From assembly GCF_001650715.1 (NCBI RefSeq), contig NZ_LWQT01000041.1, positions 1 to 64,000 on the forward strand: DNA of 64,000 bases, given 5' to 3'. Below are positions 24,521-43,291 of the stretch, piece after piece. The notes under the pieces were generated by a model. That model was not told the DNA's origin and did no database searches. It worked only from the letters and a program-made list of their open reading frames with translations. Numbering within the stretch: the stretch's first letter is position 1; every line of letters begins with the position of its first letter. This DNA is from Paramagnetospirillum marisnigri. GTDB lineage: Bacteria > Pseudomonadota > Alphaproteobacteria > Rhodospirillales > Magnetospirillaceae. Position numbers and translations under genes: made by a program.

Positions 24521-27205
24521 TCAGTAGCTTAACCGCACTTCCAGCTTTCCGGTATGGCCCACATAGTCCGGCTTGACCTCGGCATCGTAATTGCCCGCCA
24601 GCGATACGTCATTCTTGCTCAGGAAGGTGAGTCCCACGCCGATATTGGCGCCATCCTTGGTGGGCTTGACGCCGGTGCTGGTGAAGCTGGACCCGCCCAC
24701 CGCATAGGACGAAGTGGTGCTGGAGGCCTTAGTGTCCATGTATTCGTGCAGCCACTGGGCGCGCAATTCCGGGGTCAGCTTGCCGAACTCAAAGGTGATC
24801 GGATGGGTGATCTTGGCACCCAGGCCGCTTCGCAGCGAATTGGTGCGACTGGACGGATTGGTCAGATTGGACCCGCCGCCCCCGGTCTCGGTATAACCGT
24901 TTTGATTCAGGCGGCTATAGGTCACGGAGGCGATGGGCGTCACCACCGTGTCGGTGGGCAGCACCAGGGGATAGCCGCCATCCAGCTTGGCCACGTATTG
25001 GTTGGCGGCCCAGTCACCCTTGGGATTGGCGTAGTAGTTGGTGAAGGAGACGATACGGCTGGCATTGTAGAGGTGGCGGGTATAGCCCAGCGCCGCGCCG
25101 AGATACCAGGGCGAGCCCTCATAGCTGCCATACAGGGTGCCGCCATAAGAATTGACGCGGGTGCCATTGCCCGCGCTGGCGTCGGATTCATCCACCCGCG
25201 TATTGGCATAGGACAGCGCCAAACCGACGCGGGCGGCGTCCAGCACCTGGACATCGGCGCCGAAAGCGGCGCCCGATGTATCCGAGCGATAGCCGTCGGT
25301 ATCCTTGCGCCGTCCCTGCATGGCGGTGCCCGCGAAGCCCTGGACCCAGACATCCAGGCCCTTCATGGCCTCGCCGGTGGCGACACCCGTACCGCCGCTT
25401 TGCGCCAGACGGATGGAATCGACCCGCAATCCCACCGCCCCCAGGACCCGGTTCAGGGCCGCCATGGCCGCCTTGGTGTTGGCCCCGGTGACACTGGGCG
25501 CCAGCTTCTTCGCCGCCGCGTTGATGAGTGTGGCATCGCTCAGGTTGTTCAGTGCCGTCTGCAAGCTCAACATGCCCGCATCCGTCCCAGAATAGTTGCT
25601 GGGGCCATCCACCACCGTGGATGCGGTGCCTGAAACGCCGGAGACGTTGTTGGCGCCGACACTGGCGGTGATATAGATGTCGCCCGCCCCGATGCTGGAC
25701 ACCCCATAGGCGTCGGTCACCGCACCCGTGGCAACCGAGGCCGTCCATCGCGTCGATCCAGATGTGGTGACGCTGATGGTGCCGCTGTTGGTGGTGGTGC
25801 TGGAGGCATGGGCATTCAGGACCAGGAACTTGTCATTGTTCTTCACCGTATAGCCCGACACCGTGGGCGTGACGGTCAGGGTGCCGGTGTTGATGGTGTT
25901 GTTGACGTTGGTCGAACTGAAATCGATCTTGCCGTTGGACGAAGCGCCGATGGTGAACTTCACCGTCGAACTGGCCGCCTGATAGAAGCCGCCACCGTTC
26001 ACGGTGGTGCCCTGGCCGGTCAGGGTATAGGCCCCCACATCCAGGGTGCCGCCATTGAGGTACAGGCCCTGGGCGGTGTTGGAGGCCATGGTGACATTGG
26101 TGGACAGCGCGGTGGTGCCACCGTTGAGGCGCATCTGGTTGGTATAGAGGTTGTGGCCGACATTGACGGTGCCTGCCGTTACCGTGGTGGTGGCAAGGTA
26201 GCCCGAGGCACTGTCGGCGCCAATGTCGCCGCCGGTGGTGAAACTATTGCCCGAACCGGGATTGAAGGTGAGGTTGGTCTTGTTGCCCGTCGCTGTAGTG
26301 ATCTTGCCCGTGATGGAGCCGCCGGTGATGTTGATGGTGCTGCCACCGGTGCCGCCCTTGAAGGCGATGGCGGTGCCTGTGGATGAGCCACCGGTAATGG
26401 TTCCGCCGGAGATACTGACGGATTCGATTTGGGATGCTATCCCGTTGCTGCCAAATTCTATTGCTGCAGATGTGCCCGTTTGCCCGATCACGCCATCAGA
26501 TACACTAACAGATATGGTTGGCGCTACCGCGCCTCCAAAGTATATTCCAGAAGAGTTCCCGCCACCGCCAATTATTGTTCCGCCTGAATTACTTACAGTA
26601 ATGACCGGCCTTGTTCCAGAGTTTATCCCAACACTAATTCCGTGACCAGAGGACGATCCGCCTATTATTGTTCCAGCATTATTATTAACAATTCCCATAT
26701 TGTTGTTTGTAGCGTCCTCATACGCCAATCCAGAGCCACTTCCAGATCCAATTATATTTCCAGTATTTACAAGACTAAATACAGCAGACTGAGATCCTGC
26801 AGGAGTAAATGAAATTGCTGATACGCCAGTACTGCTAATAACGCCGCTGTTATTTACAATAATATTTGTTGCGCCAGTATTATTTAATTGAATTGCCGTG
26901 ACAGCGTAACCTGATCCGGTGATTGTTCCCGAGTTCACAATTGATAATGTGCCGTTGTCAAACGTATCGCCAACTCTAATTCCGACCCCAGTGCCTGTAA
27001 TTGTACTTTGATTGTCAATTGTTGCTGTGAAGCCGCCCGTACTTATGCTGTATGCAGGGTTACCGGAATTAGCCGACGAGACCGTCGTCGTCCCCGCCGA
27101 ATTGATCGTAACCGTCGCCGCCTGCGCACTCGCCACGGCTGTGAGCAGCGCCAGGGCCGAGACCGAGCCCGCCAGCGCCAAACGCTTCGATACCGACATG
27201 CCCAT
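24521..27205 (-). CDS. Autotransporter (type V secretion) protein
   Basis: About 894 residues. The ATG at 27205 is taken; an in-frame TTG lies seven codons upstream. Signal peptide to ASAQAA. The passenger, about residues 35-610, is a Gly/Ser/Thr/Asn-rich beta-helix of repeated short turns (TITGTGVGIRV, SGTITGSGYAV-like). Residues about 620-894 are the autotransporter barrel (GMKGLDVWVQGFAG-like start, final LEVRLSY). It exports the passenger across the outer membrane. The first 200 passenger codons are visibly AT-richer than the rest. A G9 tract lies about 170 bases upstream. Confidence 0.92.
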   Translation of the reverse strand: MGMSVSKRLALAGSVSALALLTAVASAQAATVTINSAGTTTVSSANSGNPAYSISTGGFTATIDNQSTITGTGVGIRVGDTFDNGTLSIVNSGTITGSGYAVTAIQLNNTGATNIIVNNSGVISSTGVSAISFTPAGSQSAVFSLVNTGNIIGSGSGSGLAYEDATNNNMGIVNNNAGTIIGGSSSGHGISVGINSGTRPVITVSNSGGTIIGGGGNSSGIYFGGAVAPTISVSVSDGVIGQTGTSAAIEFGSNGIASQIESVSISGGTITGGSSTGTAIAFKGGTGGSTINITGGSITGKITTATGNKTNLTFNPGSGNSFTTGGDIGADSASGYLATTTVTAGTVNVGHNLYTNQMRLNGGTTALSTNVTMASNTAQGLYLNGGTLDVGAYTLTGQGTTVNGGGFYQAASSTVKFTIGASSNGKIDFSSTNVNNTINTGTLTVTPTVSGYTVKNNDKFLVLNAHASSTTTNSGTISVTTSGSTRWTASVATGAVTDAYGVSSIGAGDIYITASVGANNVSGVSGTASTVVDGPSNYSGTDAGMLSLQTALNNLSDATLINAAAKKLAPSVTGANTKAAMAALNRVLGAVGLRVDSIRLAQSGGTGVATGEAMKGLDVWVQGFAGTAMQGRRKDTDGYRSDTSGAAFGADVQVLDAARVGLALSYANTRVDESDASAGNGTRVNSYGGTLYGSYEGSPWYLGAALGYTRHLYNASRIVSFTNYYANPKGDWAANQYVAKLDGGYPLVLPTDTVVTPIASVTYSRLNQNGYTETGGGGSNLTNPSSRTNSLRSGLGAKITHPITFEFGKLTPELRAQWLHEYMDTKASSTTSSYAVGGSSFTSTGVKPTKDGANIGVGLTFLSKNDVSLAGNYDAEVKPDYVGHTGKLEVRLSY

Positions 27206-27478
27206 CCCCCGCTTTCGTTCCTTCAACCGACGCGCCGCCGCACCTTAACGAGAGCAGCAACGCCGAGCGTCACCCATTTGGATGATGTCGGGCGAAATAC
27301 CACCAAATGCGCAGCCCTCATCCTATGCCCTCATATGAGGTGTCGGACGCTGCCGATTTTGGGTAATACAACCAGGGGGGGGGTGTCAATTGATGATCTG
27401 GCTAATTCCATAAAAATACAGGGGCATTATCAATCATGGAGGTCATTGTTGACCGGCTTGACCGCCCGAGTTTGCCTC
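27206..27478. promoter_or_regulatory. Divergent promoter region with G9 tract at 27375-27383
   Basis: The gap between the autotransporter start and the antitoxin gene must hold promoters for both. Nine G at 27375-27383 lie about 170 bases from the autotransporter ATG. No clear -35/-10 pair was identified. If the autotransporter promoter overlaps the tract, its length could vary expression. Confidence 0.45.
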
Positions 27479-27500: not shown

Positions 27501-27513
27501 TATGGAGGCGCCG

Positions 27514-27783
27514 ATGATCACCGAGACCAATGCCGTCACCTTCCGCCAGAACCTGGGCGAGATGATCAATCAGGTCCAATACCGCCACGACAGCATCGTC
27601 ATCAACAAGGACGGCAAACCCGTCGCCGCGCTGATCGATGCCCGCCTCTTCGGTCGTATTCGGCGGATGCAGGACCGGTTTGATACCCTGGCCACCCGCA
27701 TGGCCGATGCCTTCGCCACCATCCCCGTCGAAGAGGGCATGGCCGAGATCGACAGGATCGTCGCCGAAGGTCGGAAGCGCTGA
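27514..27783 (+). CDS. Antitoxin, Phd/YefM family
   Basis: 89 residues from the ATG at 27514, which has GGAGG five bases upstream; an earlier ATG at 27502 lacks such a site. The N-terminal half has the Phd/YefM fold (NAVTFRQNLGEMINQVQ, IVINKDGKPVAALIDARLF), which binds DNA as a dimer; the C-terminal half (RMADAFATIPVEEGMAEID) should wrap the toxin. Two bases before the PIN toxin start. Confidence 0.9.
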   Translation: MITETNAVTFRQNLGEMINQVQYRHDSIVINKDGKPVAALIDARLFGRIRRMQDRFDTLATRMADAFATIPVEEGMAEIDRIVAEGRKR

Positions 27784-27785
27784 TC

Positions 27786-28199
27786 GTGCCCACCTTGCGC
27801 GTGGTTCTGGACACCAATGTCCTGGTGTCTGGCCTAGCCTATCCCAACAGTGTGCCGGGTCGGATCGTGACAGCGTGGCGGCAGGGCGGTTTGGACGTGG
27901 TTCTGTCCCGATATATCCTCGACGAGTTGGCCCGAGTCCTGCCGCGCCTGAACCACCGTCTGAACTGGACGGACGCCGACTTCGCCGATCTCATGGACAT
28001 CCTGGCTTTGACCGCTGATCTGGTGGAACCGGATACTGGAACAGATGCCCGCCTTCGTGATCATGCCGATCAGCCTGTGCTGGGCACCCTGGTCGCCGCC
28101 AAGGCGGATTATCTCGTCACCGGGGACCGCGATCTGCTCGCCCTGGCTGAGCACTACCCGATCATCAGCCCTGTGGCTTTCTGGGAACGGCATGGCTAG
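27786..28199 (+). CDS. PIN-domain toxin (ribonuclease)
   Basis: 137 residues, GTG start. PIN nuclease acidic residues: VLDTNVLVSG (Asp), LDELARVL (Glu), TDARLRDHADQPVLGTLVAAKADYLVTGDRDLL (Asp pair). Belongs to the putative toxin PIN family COG1569. It should cleave RNA until bound by the upstream antitoxin. Its end overlaps the convergent gene by four bases. Confidence 0.9.
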   Translation: MPTLRVVLDTNVLVSGLAYPNSVPGRIVTAWRQGGLDVVLSRYILDELARVLPRLNHRLNWTDADFADLMDILALTADLVEPDTGTDARLRDHADQPVLGTLVAAKADYLVTGDRDLLALAEHYPIISPVAFWERHG

Positions 28200-29109: not shown

Positions 29110-30336
29110 TCACTTTGCCTTCTTGATGGGATGAACGTTGCCCTTCTTTACGGGCATGGCGCAGAAATTCCCCCAGTCCTGCATCAGGCGGGTTCTTTTC
29201 TCGAACAAGTCACCACGGCGATAGGCGGCTTCGACCTTGTTGCCAATGGTGTGGGCCAGGGCCATCTCCTCGACATCGCGGGGATAAGCGGTCTGTTCGG
29301 CGCACCAGTCCCGAAAGGTGGAGCGGAATCCGTGCGCCGTGAGGTCGCCTCTATTCATCCGCTTGAGCAATTGCAGGAAAGCCATCCCGGAGAGGGGACG
29401 ATTGTCTTTCATGCCGGGAAAGACATAGTCGGAAACCTTAATCGTCTTCATGGCCTCGATGATGGCCATGGCGGCGGAGGAAAGCGGCACCCGGTGTTCC
29501 CGGCCAGCCTTCATCCGCTCACCGGGGATGGTCCACACCTTCTTATCGGCATCGATTTCCGACCATTTGGCACCGTAGGCCTCACCCGGTCTGGCCGCCG
29601 TCAGAATCTGAAATTCCAGTCCCCGTGCGCCAACGCTGTCTTGTGCGCGCAAGGCCTTCATGAAGGCGCCCATCTCCTCATAGGGTAGGGCGGCATGGTG
29701 CTGCACCTTCTGAACCTTGCTGCGTGGGGGCAGAAGCTTGTCCAGATGCCCCCGCCAACGCGCTGGGTTCTCCCCACGCCGGAGCCCCCTGGCAGTAGCC
29801 CAGTCCAAGATCGACTCGACCCGTCCCCTGACCCGGCTGGCGGTCTCCGTCTTGGTCTGCCAGATCGGCTCCAGAACCTTGAGCACCAAACCGGTATCGA
29901 CGGACTTTACCGCCAACGAGCCGAAAACCGGATACACATAGGTTTCCAGTGTCGAGCCCCATTGGGCTTTGTGCTTGGCATTCTTCCAGCCAGTCTTGTG
30001 GGCATCGATATAGGCTTCGGCACACTGCCGGAATGTCATCGCCTTGGCGGCGTCCAGGGCTGCCTCAAGTTGCCGCGCTTTCCTCTCTTCAATGGGGTCT
30101 TTTCGGTCCCGTAGCTGGCGACGGCATTGCTCGGCCTCCTCCCTGGCATTGGCCAACGGAACCGTGTCAACCGACCCCAGCCCCATCTCTCGGGCTTTGC
30201 CATCCAGCATGAAGCGGAACAGCCACGACTTGGTCCCGACCTTGGACACCTGGAGGTAGAGGCCGCCACCGTCGGCGTAGCGTCCGGCCTCTTTCATCTT
30301 GGAAACTTGTAGCGCCGTGAGCTTTCCAGCAGCCAT
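29110..30336 (-). CDS. Island integrase (P4-type tyrosine recombinase)
   Basis: 408 residues. DUF4102-type arm-binding domain at the N-terminus (LTALQVSKMKEAGRYADGGG, MGLGSVDTVPLANARE), core-binding domain, then the catalytic domain with ILTAARPGEAYGAKWSEID (Arg), LTAHGFRSTFRDWC (HxxR), LAHTIGNKVEAAYRRGD (His, Tyr). It should integrate and excise the island at tRNA-Ser. It lies next to attR, and arm-like repeats flank its promoter. Confidence 0.95.
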   Translation of the reverse strand: MAAGKLTALQVSKMKEAGRYADGGGLYLQVSKVGTKSWLFRFMLDGKAREMGLGSVDTVPLANAREEAEQCRRQLRDRKDPIEERKARQLEAALDAAKAMTFRQCAEAYIDAHKTGWKNAKHKAQWGSTLETYVYPVFGSLAVKSVDTGLVLKVLEPIWQTKTETASRVRGRVESILDWATARGLRRGENPARWRGHLDKLLPPRSKVQKVQHHAALPYEEMGAFMKALRAQDSVGARGLEFQILTAARPGEAYGAKWSEIDADKKVWTIPGERMKAGREHRVPLSSAAMAIIEAMKTIKVSDYVFPGMKDNRPLSGMAFLQLLKRMNRGDLTAHGFRSTFRDWCAEQTAYPRDVEEMALAHTIGNKVEAAYRRGDLFEKRTRLMQDWGNFCAMPVKKGNVHPIKKAK

Positions 30337-30963: not shown

Positions 30964-33573
30964 CTAAAACACCCCTCGCTCGTTCAGGAATTCCCCATAT
31001 CGCCGGTCTTCGATCAGGATGTGCTTTACGATCCAGCCATGAAGGAAGGCCAAAATTTCATCAGCTGGAATTGATGCTCCTCCAGCAATCCGGCTCTGTA
31101 ATTCCTCAACCTGCGCCACCAGTCCAGCGTGGGCCCTTGAATGCCCAAGCTCAGCCGGGTACTGGTATCCATGAAGCAACTCCTCTTCAGCTTGGAAGTG
31201 ATAGCGCGTGTAATCCACCAGCTTGGAGAGCGCCTCGGCCACTTCGCCGACTTCGGTCTTTCGCTCCACTGCGTCCAGAACGCGATTGGCGGAGGCAAAG
31301 AGACGCCGATGCTGCATATCGATCCATTGGATATGGACCGAATACTCGTCATGCCATTTGAGAAGGTTCCGGCCATCCAATTGACACGCCGAAGGCTCTA
31401 CACTTGTCCGTCGGCCGAATGTTTCAAACAGCTTCCACCGCACATTGGGGATTTCCCCCAGCTGGCTGGTGGGTAGCTGATACAGCACAACCTCGGTATC
31501 GCACTTGAACGACGCGATCACCGGCACATCGAACACAGCCCTCTCCTCTCCAAAGAAATCTCCGGGTCCGAGACTTTCCAGAAGCTTTTCTCCCAGGATG
31601 CGAGATATGCGGCCAGTTTCGATCAGGTATACGGCAGGGGCGGCTTGGTCGATCTGCATGCCTGCAGCAACTCGGATGGTCTTAGCATTCTTGGCGATAG
31701 CATTTAGCGTCCCCGTTGATACCACGTCGCCCAACAGCCACGTCCTACTGAGGAATTCCCGCGTTTCAAAAAGGCGCGATATCCCGGCGAATAAGTCATG
31801 ACGCATAATGAAGGCGCGGTACAGATCCGCAGGAAGTGCCAATGCCTGAACGAAACTTAAGGCCCGGATAGTTTCTAAGGCTGGCATGTCCTGAAGGCCC
31901 GACATTTCCCCCAAGAACGCCCCTGCCGACAACTCAGCACGAAAATCCGACTCTTCGTCTAGGAGTTCGACCAATCCCGTCAGCAGCAGATAGATACGAT
32001 CATGCTGGTTGCCGCCACGTAGAAGGATGCTCTCAGGATTGAAGGTAACAACAGGTCCATTGAGAAGGCCTCCCAATTCAGGAGCAGGCACTCCGGATAG
32101 ATGATCCGCCAAGAAATGGAATGCGGCACGGCTCAGAAAATCACGATGGCTGGGGATCAGAACGTCAACGGAACCGAATGACGACCCGGAACCGATCCGC
32201 TTCTGCTCCCGGGTTAATGGTAATGATGTGTGAGCGAGAATGATCCGACTGGAGTGATCTGAAGTGAAGTCAGTCGCCTCTCCATGGATCATACCGCCGC
32301 CAATATCGATCTTCTTGATGTCCGAGGGTTCTGCGTAATCGGCAACGATCTGATCATACAAGGAGCGATCAAGGCCGGGCTTCGACGGATCGTCGGTGAT
32401 CATCCCGGCCAATGTCTTCAAACCCACCACATCAGCAAAATGGGCATAACTCCGATAGCCACCTTCGGCCAACGCCCGGAAATGGAAAATGGTGGTCTCC
32501 ACCGGATGCGGCGAGAAAACAGGTTTTACCTCCATGCCATCAAGGTTGTTCCATTCGCCGAGCCGAAGATCGACCACATTAAAGTAGCTGGAAAAGTCGC
32601 GTTCCTCGATATCCAGCAGTGCCGCGAGCTTCTTGGTCACGGCCGCCCGCACCATCGGCACGGCAAAGAATTTGACCCGCCGATCCGCCCGCATCAGCGT
32701 TGTCAGGCCGGCGATATGGTCGTCGTGGGAATGCGTGACGAAAACGCCTTCAATTTCATTGACGCCCACACCTAGGGCACGCAAAGACGCGGACAAATTC
32801 GGCCCCGCATCGACCAGATTGATCTTTCCTTGATAAACGACAATTGACCCCATGGTGGCTCGACGGATATCCCATCCATCCCCCTCGCCAAGATGAACGA
32901 CGGCGAAATACTCACGGGGAAACTGCGTTGCGCCCAAGGAGTAAGGACACTCATAAGTCTGGAACGCGCCAAGATTGAGATCGACCTCTAGAGCCTCTTG
33001 CCCAGCGCGAAATTCAAAGACATTTGGCCGCAGGCGACGAAGCTCGACCCCCGGTCGGATCTCGACGGATCCCTCGCCCAGCGCCACCCCATCCAGCAAA
33101 TCGCGGGGATGGGCAATCCGGCCAAAGGCGAAGCGGAGCTTGAGCCGCATCATTTGGTGCGCCTGGTTCGCAGGCACTCCAGCTGCCAGAATCTCCTCCT
33201 CCGATATCAGGCCGTAATTGCCTCGGAAGATGTACTGCATCTGGGCCTCGACCCGTTCCCGCCCACCGATCAGCATGGGCTTTATGCCGGTGTTGTTAGG
33301 GTGACCTGGCAGCAACATCCCTTGGCGATAGAACATCTGCAGCACCGGGAATTCCGCCAGATTGGCAAAATCTCCGCCCTGGACCATCACATCGGACAGT
33401 AGAATGGCATTGGGACCGGTTTCACAGGCGACGCCCTTGACCACGGTTGGCCGAACAAGGCCGCGCCGGATCAGATGCTTGATCGTATCCGCCGGACACC
33501 CGCATAGAATTCGCAGGTCAGCCTCGGGGATTTCAACCCAGGCGACTCCTGGTGTCACATCAATCTTGAACAT
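30964..33573 (-). CDS. MBL-fold / dual cNMP-binding / hemerythrin fusion protein
   Basis: 869 residues, cytoplasmic (no signal or membrane segment). Residues 1-190: unassigned. About 215-490: metallo-beta-lactamase fold with HSHDDH at 281-286 and later His/Asp (H356, D423, H430, H448 region). About 500-610 and 625-725: two cyclic-nucleotide-binding-like beta barrels (SILLRGGNQHDRIYLLLTG; TIRVAAGMQIDQAAPAVYL, LGPGDFFGEERAVFD). About 735-869: bacteriohemerythrin with all seven ligands H755, H792, E796, H811, H815, H851, D856. The protein probably couples O2/redox and nucleotide sensing to the MBL module. Long intergenic space at the 5' side is shared with a divergent hemerythrin gene. Confidence 0.85.
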   Translation of the reverse strand: MFKIDVTPGVAWVEIPEADLRILCGCPADTIKHLIRRGLVRPTVVKGVACETGPNAILLSDVMVQGGDFANLAEFPVLQMFYRQGMLLPGHPNNTGIKPMLIGGRERVEAQMQYIFRGNYGLISEEEILAAGVPANQAHQMMRLKLRFAFGRIAHPRDLLDGVALGEGSVEIRPGVELRRLRPNVFEFRAGQEALEVDLNLGAFQTYECPYSLGATQFPREYFAVVHLGEGDGWDIRRATMGSIVVYQGKINLVDAGPNLSASLRALGVGVNEIEGVFVTHSHDDHIAGLTTLMRADRRVKFFAVPMVRAAVTKKLAALLDIEERDFSSYFNVVDLRLGEWNNLDGMEVKPVFSPHPVETTIFHFRALAEGGYRSYAHFADVVGLKTLAGMITDDPSKPGLDRSLYDQIVADYAEPSDIKKIDIGGGMIHGEATDFTSDHSSRIILAHTSLPLTREQKRIGSGSSFGSVDVLIPSHRDFLSRAAFHFLADHLSGVPAPELGGLLNGPVVTFNPESILLRGGNQHDRIYLLLTGLVELLDEESDFRAELSAGAFLGEMSGLQDMPALETIRALSFVQALALPADLYRAFIMRHDLFAGISRLFETREFLSRTWLLGDVVSTGTLNAIAKNAKTIRVAAGMQIDQAAPAVYLIETGRISRILGEKLLESLGPGDFFGEERAVFDVPVIASFKCDTEVVLYQLPTSQLGEIPNVRWKLFETFGRRTSVEPSACQLDGRNLLKWHDEYSVHIQWIDMQHRRLFASANRVLDAVERKTEVGEVAEALSKLVDYTRYHFQAEEELLHGYQYPAELGHSRAHAGLVAQVEELQSRIAGGASIPADEILAFLHGWIVKHILIEDRRYGEFLNERGVF

Positions 33574-33825
33574 CGATCAACCTCCGGTGAAGCCCCTTGA
33601 GGAATACAGCCCAACTTTTCAGCTTTCTGCGTTCCAGGCCGAACCTGCCGAGGCATAATGGGAGCATACTTCCGCCTTAGCCTCTAGGCATATTTGGAAT
33701 TCCACCCGTGTGGCGCAATAGCGGTTTCGCCCACTCTGCTTGACACCCTAGACTGCGCTTCAATCCGTTGCGCCCTAACTACCTTAGATGTAGGGTTTGT
33801 TCCTGAATTCTCTCGGGAGCCCCCC
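33574..33825. promoter_or_regulatory. Divergent promoter region
   Basis: The 252 bases separate the start codons of the fusion gene and of the single-domain hemerythrin, which face away from each other. Both promoters must lie here; no specific operator was recognised. Shared control of the two hemerythrin genes is likely. Confidence 0.5.
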
Positions 33826-34236
33826 ATGCCTAACAAGATCGAGTGGTCGGAAGAACTCCTCGTAAACGTCACCGCCATCGACTGCGATCACCAGAAACTT
33901 TTTGTCCTAATGAATGATATTTTTTCAACAGCACATCACGGCGCGGCAGCCATCAATACTGCCATCGGGGCACTGTGCAGCTATACCAAGGAACATTTCG
34001 CTCGTGAGCAGGAAAGTATGCGCCGGGCAGATTACCCGGCTTTATCTGCCCATACATACGAGCACGAACACCTTGTTTTCCAACTCGAGTCCATGATTAA
34101 TCGCCTCATGGAAGTGGGGCCCGATGCAGTTGATGAGGCGCTTGCTTCCTTTCTCGAGGAATGGCTCACCAGCCATATTCTTAAGTTTGATATGGAATAC
34201 GCTGCATATTTGCGAAAATCCGGTCAGAAGGGCTGA
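33826..34236 (+). CDS. Bacteriohemerythrin
   Basis: 136 residues, one-domain. All seven di-iron ligands are present: H22 (DCDH), H57 and E61 (HFARE), H76, H80, H117 and D122. The ATG at 33826 has GGGAG upstream and gives the family length; a longer frame from 33694 is rejected. Probably binds O2 in the cytoplasm. Divergent from the fusion gene and convergent with the diguanylate cyclase gene 27 bases away. Confidence 0.93.
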   Translation: MPNKIEWSEELLVNVTAIDCDHQKLFVLMNDIFSTAHHGAAAINTAIGALCSYTKEHFAREQESMRRADYPALSAHTYEHEHLVFQLESMINRLMEVGPDAVDEALASFLEEWLTSHILKFDMEYAAYLRKSGQKG

Positions 34237-34263
34237 TGTCGGCCAGCGGAATAGAAAGTTTTA

Positions 34264-34968
34264 CTAGGACGCCATGGTCAAGCGATTGCGACCGGATTCC
34301 TTGGAAACATAGAGCTGCGCATCAGCTGCCTCGATCATCTGCTTAGGCGTCGTTCCCTCGTTGGGAATAAGGGATACGCCGCCGATGCTCAGCGTGATGA
34401 TGTCGATGGCTTTGGAAAAAGCGTGGGGAATGGCTAGGCCCCGAACTGCATCTAGGATGGCATTGCCAACCGCTTCGACACCACTGTCATCGGTATCGGG
34501 CAGGATGCAGACCAGTTCCTCGCCGCCGTAGCGGGCAGTCAGATCGGGGGGGCGCTTAACGATGGACTGCACCTCTTGGGCCACCGCCCGCAAGCAGTCA
34601 TCGCCTGCCGAATGGCCGTAATTGTCATTGAACAGCTTGAAGCAATCGATATCCATCAGAAGCAGGCCTACACGGGTTTTTGACCTGACGGCGCGGGCCA
34701 GTTCCTGAGCCAAGGACTCGTCGAACCAGCGACGGTTGGCGATGCCCGTTAGGCCGTCGGTGCGCGACATGGCGAGCACGGCGGCGTGGGCCACGGCAAG
34801 TTGGCGCTCAGAGCGTACAAACTGCTCCACCAGTTCGGTCAGCAGGTTCTGGTTGATCCGTTGATCGGCAAGTTGCGCCTGCTGCTCTAATACCTTTGAC
34901 ATCAGAGTGCCAACCGAATGACCGACGGTGGTTTCAAGTGTGAAGTCGATCCCGCTTAGTTTGGCCAT
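34264..34968 (-). CDS. Diguanylate cyclase (GGDEF)
   Basis: 234 residues. N-terminal 65 residues are helical with no known sensor. GGDEF domain from about 68: DGLTGIANRR, MDIDCFKLFNDNYGHSAGD, active-site GGEEL at 148-152 with the allosteric I-site RPPD at 139-142, spaced by five residues as in product-inhibited enzymes. It should make c-di-GMP from GTP. Cotranscribed with the MBL protein nine bases upstream, which is the likely input. Confidence 0.92.
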   Translation of the reverse strand: MAKLSGIDFTLETTVGHSVGTLMSKVLEQQAQLADQRINQNLLTELVEQFVRSERQLAVAHAAVLAMSRTDGLTGIANRRWFDESLAQELARAVRSKTRVGLLLMDIDCFKLFNDNYGHSAGDDCLRAVAQEVQSIVKRPPDLTARYGGEELVCILPDTDDSGVEAVGNAILDAVRGLAIPHAFSKAIDIITLSIGGVSLIPNEGTTPKQMIEAADAQLYVSKESGRNRLTMAS

Positions 34969-34977
34969 AGCCTGTCC

Positions 34978-35835
34978 TCACTCCGGAACCGAAGCTGCAT
35001 CGGCAATACCATCAATACCTATGTCATTCATGCTTTGAAGGCGAATGATGGCCGCCTTGATATCTTCGGCCCGATACAGGATAGAACCATGTTGGGGAGC
35101 TACCATGGTCGCGCCGATAGAGTTGATCACATTCATGGCATGCCTGAGTTGCCGGTTGCCTGGCATCACCTTGCGATGAAAATAGTGCATGCCGCTCCAA
35201 GGACAGGGGGTGCCGGTATCCTCGCAGGGTTCATCGGGACGATCTGGCCAAGCCACCTCGCAGGCTAGACACTTATGATCGAAGTCGGCGAATAGTCGCC
35301 AATTGCTGAAGGCCCCCGAACTACCAAATAGATCGCTAGTGAAGAGGATGCCGCTGGTCTCGTCATATGTGATGAAGCTACCAGCAGAATGTGCGTATGG
35401 CGTGTGGAAGAACCGAAGCGTCCGCCCGGATCGCGTTGTCAACTTCCGCTCCATCCGGTCGATGCACAGGAGTGGAGACTGAACAGAATAGTGCTGGATG
35501 AAAGGATTGTTCTCAGCATGAGAAATTATTTTCAGATCGGTTGAGTCAATGAGGCTTTCGAGATTGGGGATAGAGCCGCACAAGTCGGGGTCATAGTGTT
35601 GGTAGATCAGGTGGCTGATCTGCTTGGGAGATATCCCAGTCTGGAGGACCTTGCGCATCACTGTGCTGAAGTCGGGTCGGGACCCGCCGTCGATCAGAAT
35701 AGCCTCATCACCATCGACGACCAGATAGGGATTGCACTGCAAGCGCCCTTCTAGATCGGCGAAACCAACCCAGAAGATTCCCTCTGCCAGCTTTACCGGC
35801 CTGTCATAATCGATGTTCTGGTCAAGAATGCTCAT
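34978..35835 (-). CDS. Flavodiiron-like (ODP-type) MBL protein
   Basis: 285 residues from the second Met; an ATG six codons upstream is possible. No flavodoxin domain and no signal. The metal motif is YQHYDPDLCGS (HxDxD, without the usual following His), with FFHTPYAHSAGS, FTSDLFG and APQHGS supplying the other ligands in the order of flavodiiron cores. MBL proteins of this kind (ODP) have been described as di-iron O2 sensors in chemotaxis. A Cys-rich insertion (KCLACEVAW to TPCPW) may bind another metal. Operon with the GGDEF gene suggests an O2-controlled c-di-GMP switch. Confidence 0.8.
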   Translation of the reverse strand: MSILDQNIDYDRPVKLAEGIFWVGFADLEGRLQCNPYLVVDGDEAILIDGGSRPDFSTVMRKVLQTGISPKQISHLIYQHYDPDLCGSIPNLESLIDSTDLKIISHAENNPFIQHYSVQSPLLCIDRMERKLTTRSGRTLRFFHTPYAHSAGSFITYDETSGILFTSDLFGSSGAFSNWRLFADFDHKCLACEVAWPDRPDEPCEDTGTPCPWSGMHYFHRKVMPGNRQLRHAMNVINSIGATMVAPQHGSILYRAEDIKAAIIRLQSMNDIGIDGIADAASVPE

Positions 35836-36020
35836 TCCGTTTTCACCCCACATCTGGATAGAGCTTCACACTGGGAGTATAGCCCAAAGGTTATGAGCAT
35901 CCCATGCCGATAGTACATGCGCTTACAAGTATGACGCAAAGAGGTTATTGCCATTAATCTCGAGCATGGCCAGGGACAAGCCAATGCCGCACGGTCCGAT
36001 TTTGTCGGATGGCGCCAAAA

Positions 36021-36090
36021 TCTGTTGACCTTTTCGCAGTTTTTGCTGGTGCAGGAAAGAGTCCGGGCGTGAGACAGACGGTCAACAGCT
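36021..36090. repeat. Dispersed inverted-repeat element, copy 2
   Basis: Starts CTGTTGACCTTTTCGCAG and ends GGTCAACAGCT; the same design as 30726-30798, with differences mainly in the right half and one changed base in the left terminal repeat (T for G). The similarity extends a few bases left (GCCAAAA). It lies in the gene-poor gap 35854-36120. Confidence 0.65.
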
Positions 36091-36120
36091 GGTACGGGAG
36101 TGGTCGCCGACCTGCCCGTG

Positions 36121-36255
36121 TCACCATTTCCCCAGCAAAAATTCCACATCGTTTTCGCCGATGTCGAGGGTGCTTCCTGCCTCTGGATCGAATAGATCGT
36201 CGGCCAGCGCCTGCTTGCGGGTTTTCAGTTCGGCCATGTGCGGCATCGCCTTCAT
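36121..36255 (-). pseudogene. Possible remnant of a helicase C-terminus
   Basis: A 44-codon frame ends ELKTRKQALADDLF...DVEFLLGKW, similar in pattern to the C-terminal tail of SNF2-type helicases (TRKQALAD, then a short acidic segment and a hydrophobic end). No start site or upstream domain is present. If correct it is a relic; the assignment is weak. Confidence 0.25.
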
Positions 36256-36584
36256 CGTGGTGATGGCTGCGTATGCCATCTTGGAAAGCCAGCGGCGTAC
36301 AGATCGCCAGCTTCTGCGAGAGATGCATCAGTGGATCAAGGACAATTGCTGCTATTGCGACATTTGCCGAGCGGCAGAAACTGCATAATTGGACACCGCA
36401 TGCGGCCAAGATATGGTCCCAGTTTCTGGATTCGATGGTCAACATCGTCACCAATGAAATCCCCGCCTAGCTGCGCCACGTTGGGGGCGAGAAAGTTGAT
36501 CCCGTTGCTCCGCACCGTCATCGGCTGGATGCACGAAATCTTGGCCGTCGCCAACGAGATCACCGGCTGGCGTCGGAGAAGATA
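36256..36584. other. Gene-poor region
   Basis: Short frames occur on both strands but none has a family signature, good start or coherent length. Possibly decayed DNA linked to the helicase-like relic. Nothing else is seen. Confidence 0.4.
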
Positions 36585-39500
36585 TTAGCGCGATTCCATC
36601 GCCACGGCTTCGAACAGGGAACGACACGCGATCGGCGACGAGACGAGGAGTTCGAACAACGACGTCCCGGCATCGGGTTCGTCCGCGAAGGATGCGGCGC
36701 CACGGCTCCGGACCCCCATGGTCCATCCCGCGAACAGGCGCCGGATCAATTTCCCTTCGCACACCAGCGTCACGCCGGTGTGCCGCGGGTCCTGACGGAT
36801 CATGGCGTAAAGACGCCGGATGTCGACTTCCCCTCCCTCCAGATACTGCAGGAAGGTGCCGTCGAAATGGATGAGATGGCCGCTGATCCCGTTCAGTTGG
36901 TTGAAATCCCGCGCTTCGGCGACGATGGCTTCGAGAAGGAACGGCGTCACCTTGGCGGCTGGACGGCTGACGTAAATCAGGAACCGAAGGTTGCCGCTGG
37001 CACGTCCCTTGGCACGGCGGGAATTGGCCGCCGCGGTCAGCAATTCGTCAGCGGGCATGGGACGATAGAACAGATAGCCCTGGATGGAGTCGCATCCGAA
37101 CGCACGAAGGGCATTCCGCTGATCTTGGGTCTCCACGCCCTCGGCCACTACGCTGAGGTTGAGGGATTTCGACATCCGGCACAAGGCAGAGACGATGGTG
37201 CCGCTATCCGGATCGGTGTCGATGCCTTGGATGAATTCCTTGTCGATCTTGAGGACGTCGACGTTGAGGCGCAGCAATTGCGATAAGGACGAATAGCCGG
37301 TGCCGAAATCGTCTACGGCGATGCGCATCCCCAACCCAGCCATCTTGTCGATGATTTCGCGGTTCGTGTTGGTGTCGGCCATCAGGGAGGTTTCGGTGAT
37401 CTCCAGCAGCAGGCGGCGGGGGTCAGCCCCGGTTTCCTCGATGATTGAGGCGAAGCGCTCCACAAGCTTCGGGTCCGCCATCTGGCGCGTCGACATGTTG
37501 AATGAGACGTAAGGCGCGTCGTGGCCCGCCTGCGCGTGCCAGCGGCGCTCGGTGCGGCAAGCTTCCTTGAAAGTCCAATAGCCGATGTCGACGATGGAGC
37601 CGTTCATTTCGGCGACGGGGATGAAGGTTGCCGGAGAAACCTCTCCGGCGACCGAACGCCACCTCAGCAGCAATTCGGCGCCGACTACCACCGACGACCG
37701 CGTGTCGACGATGGGTTGGAATACGGTATAGAACTCGTCCTTTTCCAAAGCCGAGCGCAAGCCGATGGAGATCGACAAGCGAAGATGGGCTTCTTCCTGT
37801 AGTCCTTCGTTGAAGAAGCGCCATCCCGCACGTCCCGATTCCTTGACGGAATACATCGCAGTGTCGGCCGCCCGGATTAGGTCGTCGGCGGCGTGGGTCG
37901 AGCCGTGTCCGGCGGCAATGCCGATGCTGGCGGTAACGAACATCTTGTCGGTCCCGTAGAGGACCGGTTGCTTGGCGGCGGCGAGTATTCTTTCCGCCAA
38001 GGACGATAGCATGGCCGGAGAATCCACATGTTCGCACAGGATGACGAATTCGTCGCCGGCCAGCCGGCCGACAGTATCGCCAGGGCGCACCACATTGATG
38101 AACCGCTGAGAAATCTCCTTGAGCAATTGGTCTCCGGCTTCGTGGCCGAACTTGTCGTTGACCGCCTTGAAGCCGTCCAAATCGATGAACAGGATCGCGA
38201 TGTTGTCACCGCGGGTCTTCGAGCGATGCAGGGCCTTTTCGAGGCGCTCATGGATGAGGGCGCGGTTCGGGAGACCGGTAAGAGTGTCGTGTGTGGCGCG
38301 GCGGGTCAGCTCTGCCTCAACCTCTTTCACCGCCGTCAGGTCGCGCATGGTGGTGACCAACACCCAGGTCCCGTCTGCGCCGAACTTGGCGATGGACGCT
38401 TCCAGGGGGAAGAAGGTGCCGTCCTTGCGGTATCCGGTGATTTCTCCGCGCTGGCCCATCCGCCGTTCGGTTTCGTGGCTTGCCAGGAAACGGGCCAGAT
38501 GTTCCTGATGAAGGCTGCGGATGTGCGGCGGGACCAAAAGATTGACCGACAGACCGATCAATTCGCCTTCCATGTAGCCAAACATCTCGCTTACGGTGCG
38601 ATTGGCGTCGGTGATGAAGCCGTCCTGGTCGGTGGCCAGAATAGCCATGTCCGCGTGGGACAGGATTTGCTTCGCCGTTCCAATTTTCCGGTAGGCGTCC
38701 GCAGCCTCGGATGCCAAGCGAGCCGCCACCTGAGGATTGGATGGCGATTCGGTGAAGTGCGGATTGTCGGGAGGTGACCGATACCGTGCCGGGATCACTG
38801 GCGGGATCGGGCCGAATGCCCTGACGACCTCGAAGGTGCCGTCTTCCCGGCAACGGGTTAGATAGGAATTGACCGTTGCATGATGGGTCAGGGAATCCAT
38901 CGAAACCAAGCCTTGCGGACTGGAGACTTGCATCGTCTCAAGTGCTTGCGCAAGGGCTTCCGGCTCCAGGCTGCCGGCCATGCGCACGGCTTCGGCGAAA
39001 GCCTTGACGCAGACATAGGTGCCTTCGCCAAAATTGGTCAGCACGCCGTTTCCGTTGGGCCACAATCCCGAGACATCCGGCAATTCACGTAAATGCGAGA
39101 GGTATGCCCGCGATTCCGGCGTGTCGACGGACATGAAGTAGGTGTTGCTGGAATAGAGTCCCTCTCGGGCTTTAGGTGCCAGGCGACCGGCGATGATCTC
39201 GTCGAAATGTCCCATCGCCACCGCCATGCGATCCTTGATGCCCATTTCGGCGAACCGGGACAGCAGGGTGATCTGGTCCGCCCCGGCGAAGTAAGGAACA
39301 AAGACGTCGGCACCGGAGCGGGCCACCCGCTCCAGCAAGAGATCGATCTCTTCGGTGCGAACACCGAGGGGCAGATACTCCTCGCCGACGATCTCGCCGT
39401 TCAGAGCTGCGAGAGAACGTTTACAGGCGTCGATCGATCCTCTTGGCCATTCATAATTGTTGCCGGCGAAAAACATCTTTAGGCCGTAGCGCTCGGCCAT

Positions 39501-39899
39501 GAACGGGATCATCTTGTCAATCTGCTGGTTGGGCAGAGCGGCAAAGTGAAAGAACCAGCGCGACGAGATGCTGCCTTCGTAGAAGGAGAAGTTCAGGTAG
39601 GGAATGCCCAAGGGATCGGCGACCTTGGCCGCCACGTCGATTCGCGCGTTCGAGAGCAGGTTGCCGATGATGGCGCTGCACTTGTGCTGCTCGACAAGCC
39701 GCCGCGCTGCCGGGACCGCCGTCAACGGCAGGCTGCCGTCGTCTTCGACGATCAATTCCAAGGGCACCCCCAGGACGCCGCCGTTTTCATTGATCTCCGC
39801 ACAAGCAATCGTTGCCGCCCAGACAATCTCCTGGCCGTACATGTCGACCAAGCCGGACAGTGGGGGCATCAAGCCAAGGCGGATGGAAGGACTCGTCAT
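36585..39899 (-). CDS. Ligand-binding/PAS/GGDEF/EAL/BLUF c-di-GMP protein
   Basis: 1104 residues, no signal or membrane helix. 5-385: type I periplasmic-binding fold of the AmiC/urea-receptor class, apparently cytoplasmic. 405-525: PAS (SHADMAILATDQDGFITDAN). 540-695: GGDEF with AGDEF at 614-618. 715-955: EAL with AELLLR (741-746), ITET (834-837), DDFG (863-866), EGVET (920-924). 971-1063: BLUF photoreceptor with Y976, N1000, Q1018 and W1059, at the same spacing as Y21, N45, Q63 and W104 in AppA. It should make and/or degrade c-di-GMP in response to a small ligand and blue light. The Ala in AGDEF leaves the cyclase direction uncertain, while the EAL motifs look active. Confidence 0.93.
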   Translation of the reverse strand: MTSPSIRLGLMPPLSGLVDMYGQEIVWAATIACAEINENGGVLGVPLELIVEDDGSLPLTAVPAARRLVEQHKCSAIIGNLLSNARIDVAAKVADPLGIPYLNFSFYEGSISSRWFFHFAALPNQQIDKMIPFMAERYGLKMFFAGNNYEWPRGSIDACKRSLAALNGEIVGEEYLPLGVRTEEIDLLLERVARSGADVFVPYFAGADQITLLSRFAEMGIKDRMAVAMGHFDEIIAGRLAPKAREGLYSSNTYFMSVDTPESRAYLSHLRELPDVSGLWPNGNGVLTNFGEGTYVCVKAFAEAVRMAGSLEPEALAQALETMQVSSPQGLVSMDSLTHHATVNSYLTRCREDGTFEVVRAFGPIPPVIPARYRSPPDNPHFTESPSNPQVAARLASEAADAYRKIGTAKQILSHADMAILATDQDGFITDANRTVSEMFGYMEGELIGLSVNLLVPPHIRSLHQEHLARFLASHETERRMGQRGEITGYRKDGTFFPLEASIAKFGADGTWVLVTTMRDLTAVKEVEAELTRRATHDTLTGLPNRALIHERLEKALHRSKTRGDNIAILFIDLDGFKAVNDKFGHEAGDQLLKEISQRFINVVRPGDTVGRLAGDEFVILCEHVDSPAMLSSLAERILAAAKQPVLYGTDKMFVTASIGIAAGHGSTHAADDLIRAADTAMYSVKESGRAGWRFFNEGLQEEAHLRLSISIGLRSALEKDEFYTVFQPIVDTRSSVVVGAELLLRWRSVAGEVSPATFIPVAEMNGSIVDIGYWTFKEACRTERRWHAQAGHDAPYVSFNMSTRQMADPKLVERFASIIEETGADPRRLLLEITETSLMADTNTNREIIDKMAGLGMRIAVDDFGTGYSSLSQLLRLNVDVLKIDKEFIQGIDTDPDSGTIVSALCRMSKSLNLSVVAEGVETQDQRNALRAFGCDSIQGYLFYRPMPADELLTAAANSRRAKGRASGNLRFLIYVSRPAAKVTPFLLEAIVAEARDFNQLNGISGHLIHFDGTFLQYLEGGEVDIRRLYAMIRQDPRHTGVTLVCEGKLIRRLFAGWTMGVRSRGAASFADEPDAGTSLFELLVSSPIACRSLFEAVAMESR

Positions 39900-41112: not shown

Positions 41113-41508
41113 TCACCGCGCAGTAATCCCGAATCTTTCCCGCTGCCGGTGCCATTCCACCGGCATGTCGTCCATCAGGTCGGCAAGTTGGAGTGTCCGC
41201 GGCTGGCGTCCGTCGAGGATGGTTTCGACGATGTCGGGGGCCAGCAAGGTCAGGCGGTAGATTCGGGTCATGTAGGATGGGCTGATCTTCTCGGCGTCAG
41301 ACAACTCGTTCAGGGATGCCACCTGCCCGGATTCCAGCATGCGCTTCCAGCGATGGGCGCGGGCCAGCGCCTTCAGCAGGGTATCGTCGGGGGTGGGCTT
41401 GGCACGCACCGGGACGCCCTCGGGCACGATCACCAGCTTGCGGCCGCCATATCGCCGCAGGGTCAGTGGCACGCGGACGGTGAAGGTGTCGATGCTGACC
41501 CCGCTCAT
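41113..41508 (-). CDS. Recombinase-operon protein of unknown function
   Basis: 131 residues. N-terminal beta-rich part (VRVPLTLRRYGGRKLVIVPEG) and C-terminal HTH-like helices (LNELSDAEKISPSYMTRIYRLTLLAPDIVE), ending LADLMDDMPVEWHRQRE. It overlaps the serine recombinase stop by ATGA and so is co-translated. Likely a DNA-binding accessory or directionality factor of the recombinase; this is inferred from position only. Confidence 0.75.
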   Translation of the reverse strand: MSGVSIDTFTVRVPLTLRRYGGRKLVIVPEGVPVRAKPTPDDTLLKALARAHRWKRMLESGQVASLNELSDAEKISPSYMTRIYRLTLLAPDIVETILDGRQPRTLQLADLMDDMPVEWHRQRERFGITAR

Positions 41509-42845
41509 GCCGCGCTCCTGTCGCCGGTCTGGGCGGTGATGTCGGCGATGACGCTGGCCAGTCCCTCGGCGCGCAACCGGACCTCGGCGCAGTCTGGGGC
41601 GATGGCCACTTTCTCGACCAGAAGCTGGAGGATACGGGCCTGCTCGGCGGGGAACAGTTCGTCCCAGAGTGCCTCGAAGCGATCGAGGGCGGCATGCAGA
41701 TCGGCCGGCGACATGGTTGGCGCCCTCCGTTCGGCCCGCGCCCGGATCTCGGGGGCGCGCAGCAATGCCCGGACCTGTCCGATGACGGCCGCCTCGATCT
41801 CACCGGCGGCGATGCTGCGCACTGGGCAGGACTCGTGGCCGGAATGGATCGCCTTCATGCAGGTATAGTACCGGTACAGCCGACCCTTCTTTCGGGTCGA
41901 AGTTGGCGTCATAGCCCGGCCACAATTGGCGCAGACGATCAGCCCCTTCAGCGGCGCCGGGGTCGATGACCGCACCGCATTGGCCCGCTTCCTGGGCGCA
42001 TTGTCGGTCTTCACCGCCACCACCTTGTCCCAGGTGACGCGGTCGATGATGGCGGGATGCTCGCCGGCATGGGCTTCGCCCTTGTGGACGGCCTCACCGA
42101 GATAGACCCGGTTGTCGAGCAGCTTGTAGAGGAAGTTCTTGGTGATGGGCGCGCCGTCGCGGTGCTTGCCGTCTTGGGTGGTCCAGGACTTGGTATGGTG
42201 ACCGGCGGCGTTGAGTTCCTTCACCAGCAGGGTGGCGGAGCCGACCTTGAGGAAGCGGTCGAAGATGTGGCGGACCAGATCGGCCTCGGGCTGGTTGACC
42301 ACCAGCTTGCGGGCGACCACATCGTAGCCCAAGGGCGGGACGCCGCCCATCCACATGCCCTTGCGCCGGGAGGCGGCGAATTTGTCGCGGATGCGCTCGC
42401 CGATCACTTCCCGCTCGAACTGGGCGAAGGACAGCAGGATGTTGAGCGTGAGGCGCCCCATGCTGGTCGTCGTGTTGAACGATTGGGTCACCGACACGAA
42501 GGTGACGGCGTTGCGGTCGAACACCTCGACCAGCTTGGAGAAATCCATCAGCGAGCGCGACAGGCGGTCGATCTTGTAGACCACCACCACATCGATCAAC
42601 CCGGCCTCGATGTCGGCCAGCAGGCGCTTCAGGGCGGGACGCTCCAGGTTGCCGCCGGAGAAGCCGCCATCATCGTAATGGTCCGGCACCGGCACCCAGC
42701 CCTCGGCCCGCTGGCTGGTGATGTAGGCCTCGCAGGATTCTCGTTGGGCGTCGAGGCTGTTGAATTCCATCTCCAGGCCCTCTTCCGAGGACTTGCGGGT
42801 ATAGATGGCGCAGCGAACCTTGCGGATCGGCTTGGGCGAGTTCAT
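41505..42845 (-). CDS. Large serine recombinase
   Basis: 446 residues from the ATG at 42845 (ATGA overlap with the DUF2924 gene). Resolvase domain at the N-terminus: CAIYTRKSSEEGLEMEFNSLDAQ with the nucleophile Ser, VYKIDRLSRSLMDF, then recombinase domain (PLGYDVVARKLVVNQPEADLV) and a zinc ribbon (LIVCANCGRAMTP to YYTC). It should integrate and excise the neighbouring prophage without host factors. No att pair could be located within the window. Confidence 0.93.
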   Translation of the reverse strand: MNSPKPIRKVRCAIYTRKSSEEGLEMEFNSLDAQRESCEAYITSQRAEGWVPVPDHYDDGGFSGGNLERPALKRLLADIEAGLIDVVVVYKIDRLSRSLMDFSKLVEVFDRNAVTFVSVTQSFNTTTSMGRLTLNILLSFAQFEREVIGERIRDKFAASRRKGMWMGGVPPLGYDVVARKLVVNQPEADLVRHIFDRFLKVGSATLLVKELNAAGHHTKSWTTQDGKHRDGAPITKNFLYKLLDNRVYLGEAVHKGEAHAGEHPAIIDRVTWDKVVAVKTDNAPRKRANAVRSSTPAPLKGLIVCANCGRAMTPTSTRKKGRLYRYYTCMKAIHSGHESCPVRSIAAGEIEAAVIGQVRALLRAPEIRARAERRAPTMSPADLHAALDRFEALWDELFPAEQARILQLLVEKVAIAPDCAEVRLRAEGLASVIADITAQTGDRSAA

Positions 42846-43291
42846 CGGCTGGCCTCCAGCTTGCCATGCTTGCGCAGCCCGAAGAACAGCGGCCCATTCC
42901 AGCGGGTGCCGGTGATGGCGCGGGCCACCGCCGACAGGCTCTGGTAGCGGCGGCCCTGCCATTCGAAGCCGTCGGCCAGCGCCGTCACTTCCTGCATCAC
43001 CCCCTGCCATTCCCGGATCAGCTTGGTGCCGACGATCGGGGCGGTCATGTCCTTGGGTTTCGGCTTCTTCTTGCCGTCCAACTCGTCGACCAGATCGTCG
43101 AGGCGGCGTTCGGCCTGGACCGACAGGCCGCCGAAGGCCAGTTCCTGAATCCGGTAGGCCAGTCGCTTGACCAGGAAGGTGCGGTTGTAGGGCGGCGGCT
43201 CGGTGCCGGTCAGCTCCCGCCACATCGCCTTCAACTTGGGCGTCGGCAGGGTCGGCAATTCAGCCACCTGGGAAAGGATCGCGGTTGTCAT
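42842..43291 (-). CDS. DUF2924 protein
   Basis: 149 residues with the DUF2924 pattern: LPTPKLKAMWRELTGTEPPP, YNRTFLVKRLAYRIQELAFGG, then LIREWQGVMQEVTALADGFEWQG and YQSLSAVARAITGTRWNGPLF. The family nearly always sits directly upstream of a serine recombinase, as here, and the C-terminal repeat is thought to bind DNA. Role unproven. Confidence 0.9.
   Translation of the reverse strand: MTTAILSQVAELPTLPTPKLKAMWRELTGTEPPPYNRTFLVKRLAYRIQELAFGGLSVQAERRLDDLVDELDGKKKPKPKDMTAPIVGTKLIREWQGVMQEVTALADGFEWQGRRYQSLSAVARAITGTRWNGPLFFGLRKHGKLEASR

Follow-up and report, generated by a model that had tools for sequence, protein, structure and literature searches.

In Treponema denticola a stand-alone sensor of the oxygen-binding di-iron protein (ODP) type, TDE2498, is genetically coupled to the receptor TDE2496, which carries no sensing module of its own, according to excerpts of the report on this system (PMC7666581). 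In this paper we describe an ODP whose gene partner is not a chemoreceptor but a diguanylate cyclase (DGC), encoded in a stretch of 64,000 nucleotides from Paramagnetospirillum marisnigri that we call the window. The two ODPs have the di-iron metallo-β-lactamase (MBL) family and the ligand positions in common, and four other outputs occur in place of the cyclase in relatives of the window pair. The pair is further distinguished by an insert with four Cys residues in the ODP and by an N-terminal adaptor helix in the cyclase, which are not present in the solved ODPs and were not found in the Protein Data Bank (PDB). With moderate confidence, we favour the reading that the ODP acts on the helical stalk of the cyclase to control it, and that both form a two-protein sensor-enzyme pair.

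Control of a GGDEF enzyme by a non-heme di-iron O2 or redox sensor, as we propose for ODP-DGC, has a precedent in VcBhr-DGC of Vibrio cholerae. In the sections of the sources used here, its sensor lies in the same chain as the GGDEF domain and has a different fold from ODP (PMC8846402, PMC9388753), and the protein is listed as O2 (-) (PMC8846402). A 2022 review of cyclic di-GMP (c-di-GMP) names PAS-heme, protoglobin and hemerythrin sensors in the available part of its O2 table, and its main text contains neither 'lactamase' nor 'diiron' ('di-iron' is used, for hemerythrin). The term 'ODP' is absent from a 2026 aerotaxis review. In the literature searched, which includes partial texts, ODP appears as a chemotaxis sensor only, and no link to cyclases, HD-GYP proteins, kinases or SpoIIE was seen; the 2019 primary ODP paper lies outside that search and an earlier notice there is possible.

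The activator protein SiaC acts on the stalk of the cyclase SiaD. This system (7e6g) also consists of a cyclase and a separate activator, and a model of the window DGC matches its stalk-plus-GGDEF fold at rank 8 with a TM score of 0.80 by query length, which is a similarity of fold only. Unlike the window regulator, SiaC is not an ODP. To our knowledge, no complex between a c-di-GMP cyclase and an ODP has been described.

Pairing of the ODP with helix-bearing enzymes

The relatives of the window ODP among solved structures are 6qrq (E 4e-21) and 6qnm (E 5e-14), and its HxDPD motif and further H, D and H align with both of them. The ligand positions H, D, D, H, D, H are invariant in 81/81 aligned ODPs. 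An earlier note, made from the window sequence, had called this protein a flavodiiron-like MBL protein. The MBL part of this description holds, but the protein is an ODP (PF19583), with only ODP/Lactamase_B domains found by Pfam in its 291 residues, and the missing flavodoxin domain rules out a classical flavodiiron reductase. The four Cys residues of the insert are kept in 81, 78, 79 and 81 of the 81 aligned proteins, and both solved ODPs are shorter at this site. The insert is a possible second metal or iron-sulphur site.

For the distribution of the pair, 79 genomes, the window's own included, were searched with the ODP and with two further proteins of the region, an MBL/hemerythrin fusion and a BLUF protein (see below). 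This resulted in 11 close ODP genes in 9 genomes, and every one of the 11, window included, is adjacent to a DGC gene. In the window the ODP and its GGDEF partner are 9 bp apart; across 16 named loci with such a partner the gap lies between -41 and +13 bp, with start positions chosen by us. The GGEE active site and the RxxD I-site are invariant in the aligned ODP-paired cyclases (15/15). The nearest ODP loci belong to Magnetospirillum and its relatives. We also observe that the ODP-DGC loci closest to the window (L109-L126) come mostly from magnetotactic groups (Magnetospirillum, Magnetococcales, Magnetaquicoccus), and that in L109, L110, L120, L121 and L124 other hemerythrin-domain genes lie about 2 kb or less from the ODP, like in the window. 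A tie of ODP-DGC to magneto-aerotaxis is possible.

A scan of genome contigs gave 160 ODP relatives, and the best 80 by ODP similarity, from many phyla, were kept. In these 80 loci the neighbour of the ODP is often not a cyclase. What the partners have in common is an N-terminal segment of about 46 residues, the adaptor, which is found in 76 or 77 of the 80 loci. For a census of outputs, open reading frames were re-picked in 77 of the 80 loci and the window (L172, L173 and L178 gave none, L154 is borderline with iE 0.014 and L164 is truncated). Pfam assigns the 78 adaptor-bearing partners to SpoIIE (20), HD_5 (20), GGDEF (17), HisKA (16) and Guanylate_cyc (4), and the MCP family of chemoreceptors is absent among them. 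The HD_5 matches are HD-GYP-type partners; 14 of the 20 miss the strict HHExWxGxGYP pattern, and for these we do not claim catalytic competence.

The adaptor profile consists of 42 non-GGDEF partners and has no GGDEF partner in the model. From an initial 52 downstream proteins, L119, L130, L131, L137, L182 and L188 were dropped as wrong or mis-started reading frames, and four GGDEF partners were held out. The profile detects the window DGC (E 3.9e-10) and 13/13 other GGDEF partners tested, the weakest at E 0.0073 (all with Z 10000). Among the 8,150 open frames of the 80 loci, matches with E <0.01 immediately follow the ODP in 72 loci (42 model rows among them) and immediately precede it in 4, and no other open frame matched at this threshold. 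In the remaining loci, L154 is borderline, L173 has no adaptor, and L172 and L178 end at a contig edge. The adaptor corresponds to no Pfam family, and its single match in the PDB (E 1.9) is taken as noise. NCBIfam searches with the 52 partners gave generic kinase, cyclase and phosphodiesterase models in the 25 listed of 195 families.

When the five outputs are mapped on a tree of 77 ODPs, 11 changes are required, where the minimum possible is 4 and the shuffled mean 44.6. Well-supported branches alone force at least 3 changes for GGDEF and at least 4 for histidine kinases. This shows that outputs were swapped while the sensor and the helix stayed together.

Whole-genome searches for the adaptor used a 44-row alignment (A4). 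The 79 relatives contain 11 matches, four of them model rows, beside the same 11 ODP genes (11/11). For 30 of the 80 loci the full genomes were searched as well, and 28 of these genomes contain 32 matches, all adjacent to an ODP (32/32), including four further copies outside the 80 loci. In 398 genomes from the phylum, a set that partly overlaps the others, an ODP adjoins 15 of the 16 matches (14 genomes); the sole match without an ODP neighbour is the weakest (E 2.1e-4) and lies in a 1394-residue frame. The window genome has 58 GGDEF matches but one adaptor.

We consider it reasonably probable that the four-Cys ODP subfamily and the so far undescribed helix of about 46 residues form a general two-protein sensor of O2, redox state or iron, present in many phyla and with at least five outputs (diguanylate cyclase, HD-GYP phosphodiesterase, histidine kinase, SpoIIE phosphatase and nucleotide cyclase). 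Its c-di-GMP-making version would be the one in the window, and is seen in Magnetospirillum, Magnetococcales and a few other lineages.

Proposed control of the cyclase

An alignment-based model of the window DGC (mean pLDDT 86.6) has one long helix, residues 9-69, that runs into the GGDEF domain; a single-sequence model was poor (pLDDT 45). Besides SiaD-SiaC, the fold matches of the model include WspR and DgcB with its coiled coil. We propose that the di-iron site of the ODP would bind O2, or report the iron or redox state, that the four-Cys insert may hold a second metal site, and that the ODP would dock on the long N-terminal helix of its partner. A change in the state of the ODP would then alter the dimer geometry of the stalk and switch the GGDEF domain and c-di-GMP synthesis. 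In the related systems, the same kind of ODP-plus-helix pair would drive HD-GYP, histidine-kinase, SpoIIE or nucleotide-cyclase outputs. The sign of control is a guess: the cyclase may be more active at low O2, by analogy with VcBhr-DGC. The BLUF enzyme encoded nearby would add ligand- and blue-light-controlled c-di-GMP turnover, separately from ODP-DGC.

There are several points that weigh against this proposal. Firstly, the contact between ODP and helix is one that we infer. Secondly, the O2 chemistry may differ from that of the characterised ODPs, because the four-Cys insert is not found in these. Thirdly, the 80 loci were not sampled at random but are the top 80 of 160 when ranked by similarity of the ODP. 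The adaptor is also short, and the genomes of L154 and L148 gave no match at E 0.001. Since the L148 copy was seen in the locus search, the genome-wide search is not fully sensitive and diverged orphan adaptors could be missed. Finally, single-chain ODP-GGDEF proteins of 593-623 residues exist naturally, two in G050 and one in G051 (L099, L100, L102), and these have neither the adaptor nor the Cys insert. For this reason they represent a different subtype, and at the same time they are an independent sign that ODP and GGDEF are functionally joined.

Neighbouring genes and alternative readings

The ODP-DGC pair lies in a region of five genes (Table 1). Pfam and NCBIfam searches, with scores far above chance, confirm the genes, their positions and the domain order given in the earlier note. 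A membrane-helix-like segment was found in none of the five proteins (the top 19-residue Kyte-Doolittle mean is 1.55, below 1.6). The BLUF enzyme, the fusion and the small hemerythrin are neighbours of ODP-DGC and not proven members of its circuit.

Table 1. Features of the region and its flanks, in window positions (cNMP, cyclic nucleotide monophosphate; PBP, periplasmic-binding protein).
Feature	Position	Strand	Evidence
Tyrosine integrase, region flank	29110..30336	-	PF00589, PF13356, PF22022
Fusion: conserved N-terminal region, MBL, two cNMP-like domains, hemerythrin	30964..33573	-	Pfam (MBL PF12706 E 2e-9; two cNMP_binding stretches 6e-21; hemerythrin 2e-12); ligand residues
Small bacteriohemerythrin, convergent with DGC	33694..34236	+	PF01814 E 2.9e-12; TIGR02481 and NF033749 above cut-off
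DGC: GGDEF enzyme, 234 residues, start 9 bp past ODP stop	34264..34968	-	PF00990 E 2.8e-47
Adaptor helix, DGC N-terminus	34783..34926	-	profile match E 3.9e-10 (Z 10000)
ODP: oxygen-binding di-iron MBL protein, 291 residues, first gene of the ODP-DGC pair	34978..35853	-	PF19583 E 1.2e-57
Four-Cys insert of ODP, CxxC-x11-C-x6-C	35203..35271	-	conserved Cys in aligned ODPs
PBP-PAS-GGDEF-EAL-BLUF protein	36585..39899	-	Peripla_BP_6 5e-67, PAS, GGDEF 2e-46, EAL 8e-72, BLUF 7e-23
Serine recombinase, region flank	41505..43223	-	PF00239, PF07508, PF13408

The BLUF protein has Asn, Gln and Trp residues aligned with those of AppA and other solved BLUF domains, at the positions of the flavin pocket. BLUF is coupled to EAL as in BlrP1 and other BLUF-EAL phosphodiesterases, and compared with BlrP1 the window protein adds a cytosolic PBP fold, PAS and GGDEF and carries BLUF at its C-terminus. 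The ligand-binding part that the earlier note had seen is indeed a PBP fold, and its location can be refined: a stop codon lies in frame only three codons before the start, too close to allow a signal peptide, and with no hydrophobic segment the fold should be cytosolic. AmiC, a cytosolic ligand sensor with a PBP fold, is among the PDB matches. At E 1e-200 there are 7 relatives in 6 of the 79 genomes, so that 5 genomes besides the window's own have an ortholog; in one of them the BLUF part is missing (the G059 relative matches residues 5-961 only).

In the fusion, the MBL ligands are kept in 25/25 aligned rows and the hemerythrin ligands (five His, one Glu, one Asp) in 24/24 rows having this domain, which also scores above the NF033749 cut-off. 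The first 215 or so residues are highly conserved, with CGCPxDxxKH and GRGNYGL-like motifs; they have no Pfam match, and no PDB stretch covers them among the best 60 of 138 matches. The cassette Arg, the phosphate-binding residue of cNMP domains, is found in the first cNMP-like domain in 0/25 rows and in the second in 5/25, and the window protein has it in neither, so the cNMP sensing that had been suggested for this protein is rejected. The second-domain Arg is confined to those five rows of the tree that have EAL and GGDEF upstream. A cNMP-type domain near c-di-GMP metabolism is also seen in Bd1971, described in the portion of text used here as a cAMP-sensing cNMP-EAL phosphodiesterase (PMC6717892); the window fusion differs from it in having no EAL domain and no cassette Arg.

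A GGDEF and/or EAL gene is located upstream on the same strand within 2.5 kb in 12 of the 26 fusion loci fetched, using GGDEF, EAL and hemerythrin profiles built from the loci themselves. Three of these loci are BLUF-linked. The other nine come from same-genus genomes, and here EAL, GGDEF and fusion mostly follow one another in this order (in L081 only EAL is seen). Five of the nine form one fully supported clade and the other four are outside the tree sampling. The other 14 loci have no GGDEF or EAL gene upstream, with only 840 upstream bases available in L073. Given 58 GGDEF matches in 4.62 Mb, chance neighbours of the fusion should be few; the loci are related and not independent. The O2 or redox link to c-di-GMP of the earlier proposal is strongly indicated for ODP-DGC by strict gene pairing, and the recurrent position of the fusion family behind c-di-GMP enzymes also agrees with the proposal.

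The fusion probably acts as an O2-responsive MBL hydrolase or effector, and its family frequently follows genes for c-di-GMP enzymes. We regard as possible, though on the unlikely side, that it works as a phosphodiesterase on cyclic nucleotides, or as another MBL hydrolase, with O2 and a nucleotide as gating inputs. This would fit the invariant MBL ligands, the resemblance of the cNMP domains to tandem cGMP-kinase domains, the second cassette Arg of five rows and a weak similarity to Apyc1 (25/25 members at E up to 1; 7u2s E 5.6e-6). However, Apyc1 scores 21 bits against a Pfam cut-off of 50 and is outscored by RNase Z models, and the window protein is without Arg in both cassettes.

For ODP-DGC itself, it is rather doubtful that the common helix is a generic dimerising signalling helix and not a docking site for the ODP. 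The modelled single long helix continuous with the stalk, like the coiled-coil stalks of WspR and DgcB, would fit a generic role. However, the genome-wide helix matches adjoin an ODP in all but one weak case, although GGDEF proteins without the helix are plentiful in the window genome.

The earlier note had read the whole 9-kb locus as one circuit that integrates O2, light, ligand and cNMP inputs into c-di-GMP output. In favour of this, four of the five genes are on the same strand, the fusion follows c-di-GMP enzymes in 12/26 loci, and in G006, G020 and G050 it comes directly after the BLUF protein. We nevertheless find a single circuit improbable. The five genes are together in the window only; none of the other 78 relatives has the full set, and a conserved five-gene circuit is rejected. 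The BLUF protein and the fusion are separated in the window by about 3 kb that hold ODP, DGC and small hemerythrin, and where ODP-DGC and BLUF protein-fusion both exist elsewhere (G006 and G050) each unit has a contig of its own. Full-length relatives of the fusion are common across the family, with several per genome. Eight genomes besides the window's own carry a close ODP, and the full-length fusion genes listed for them are either on another contig or at a distance of more than 180 kb. The window fusion is 59-61% identical to the BLUF-linked fusions, against 83-90% for the BLUF proteins, and hence was not simply inherited together with the BLUF protein; in the tree it is a long branch inside a wider clade that holds the BLUF-linked fusions. 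Low GC content (0.53-0.56 at 30 to 36 kb, compared with 0.59-0.66 over most of the flanks; a second dip is at 26-27 kb) and the flanking recombinases suggest a recent assembly of the region. Co-location of such families alone is weak evidence, as hemerythrin (46 matches) and GGDEF are frequent genome-wide. The region looks like a mosaic of two units, namely ODP-DGC and a c-di-GMP enzyme upstream of a fusion. Window positions 33500-36600 gave zero matches in a plasmid collection (near mode). Within 33300-37000 there are two short families of direct repeats and two pairs of inverted repeats, none of which marks an insertion.

Further observations concern the surroundings. Two small genes with overlapping ranges at 27502-28199 appear by eye to be a Phd-type antitoxin and a PIN-domain toxin, and 24521-27226 encodes an autotransporter with a repetitive passenger (PF03797). 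On contig C98 of the same genome (G000), a hemerythrin and two GGDEF matches at about 168-174 kb repeat at 197-203 kb with identical scores and a constant offset of 28,729 bases, which is a recent duplication or an assembly effect.

Least probable is that the ODP is an O2- or nitric oxide-detoxifying or iron-handling enzyme co-expressed with its partner without controlling it, since, although it keeps the di-iron ligands and sits in the MBL branch that includes flavodiiron reductases, it is without a flavodoxin domain, and its partners vary in class yet are all signalling enzymes with a common N-terminal helix, which simple co-expression does not require.

Implications for c-di-GMP signalling

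If the ODP does control its partner through the helix, ODP control of a cyclase would add a new class of sensor to c-di-GMP signalling. One sensor design would then account for O2 or redox input to several signalling currencies in anaerobes and microaerophiles. It would also provide a predicted sensor for many GGDEF, HD-GYP, kinase and SpoIIE proteins that have no known input, and the question of how one docking helix feeds unrelated catalytic domains would become testable.

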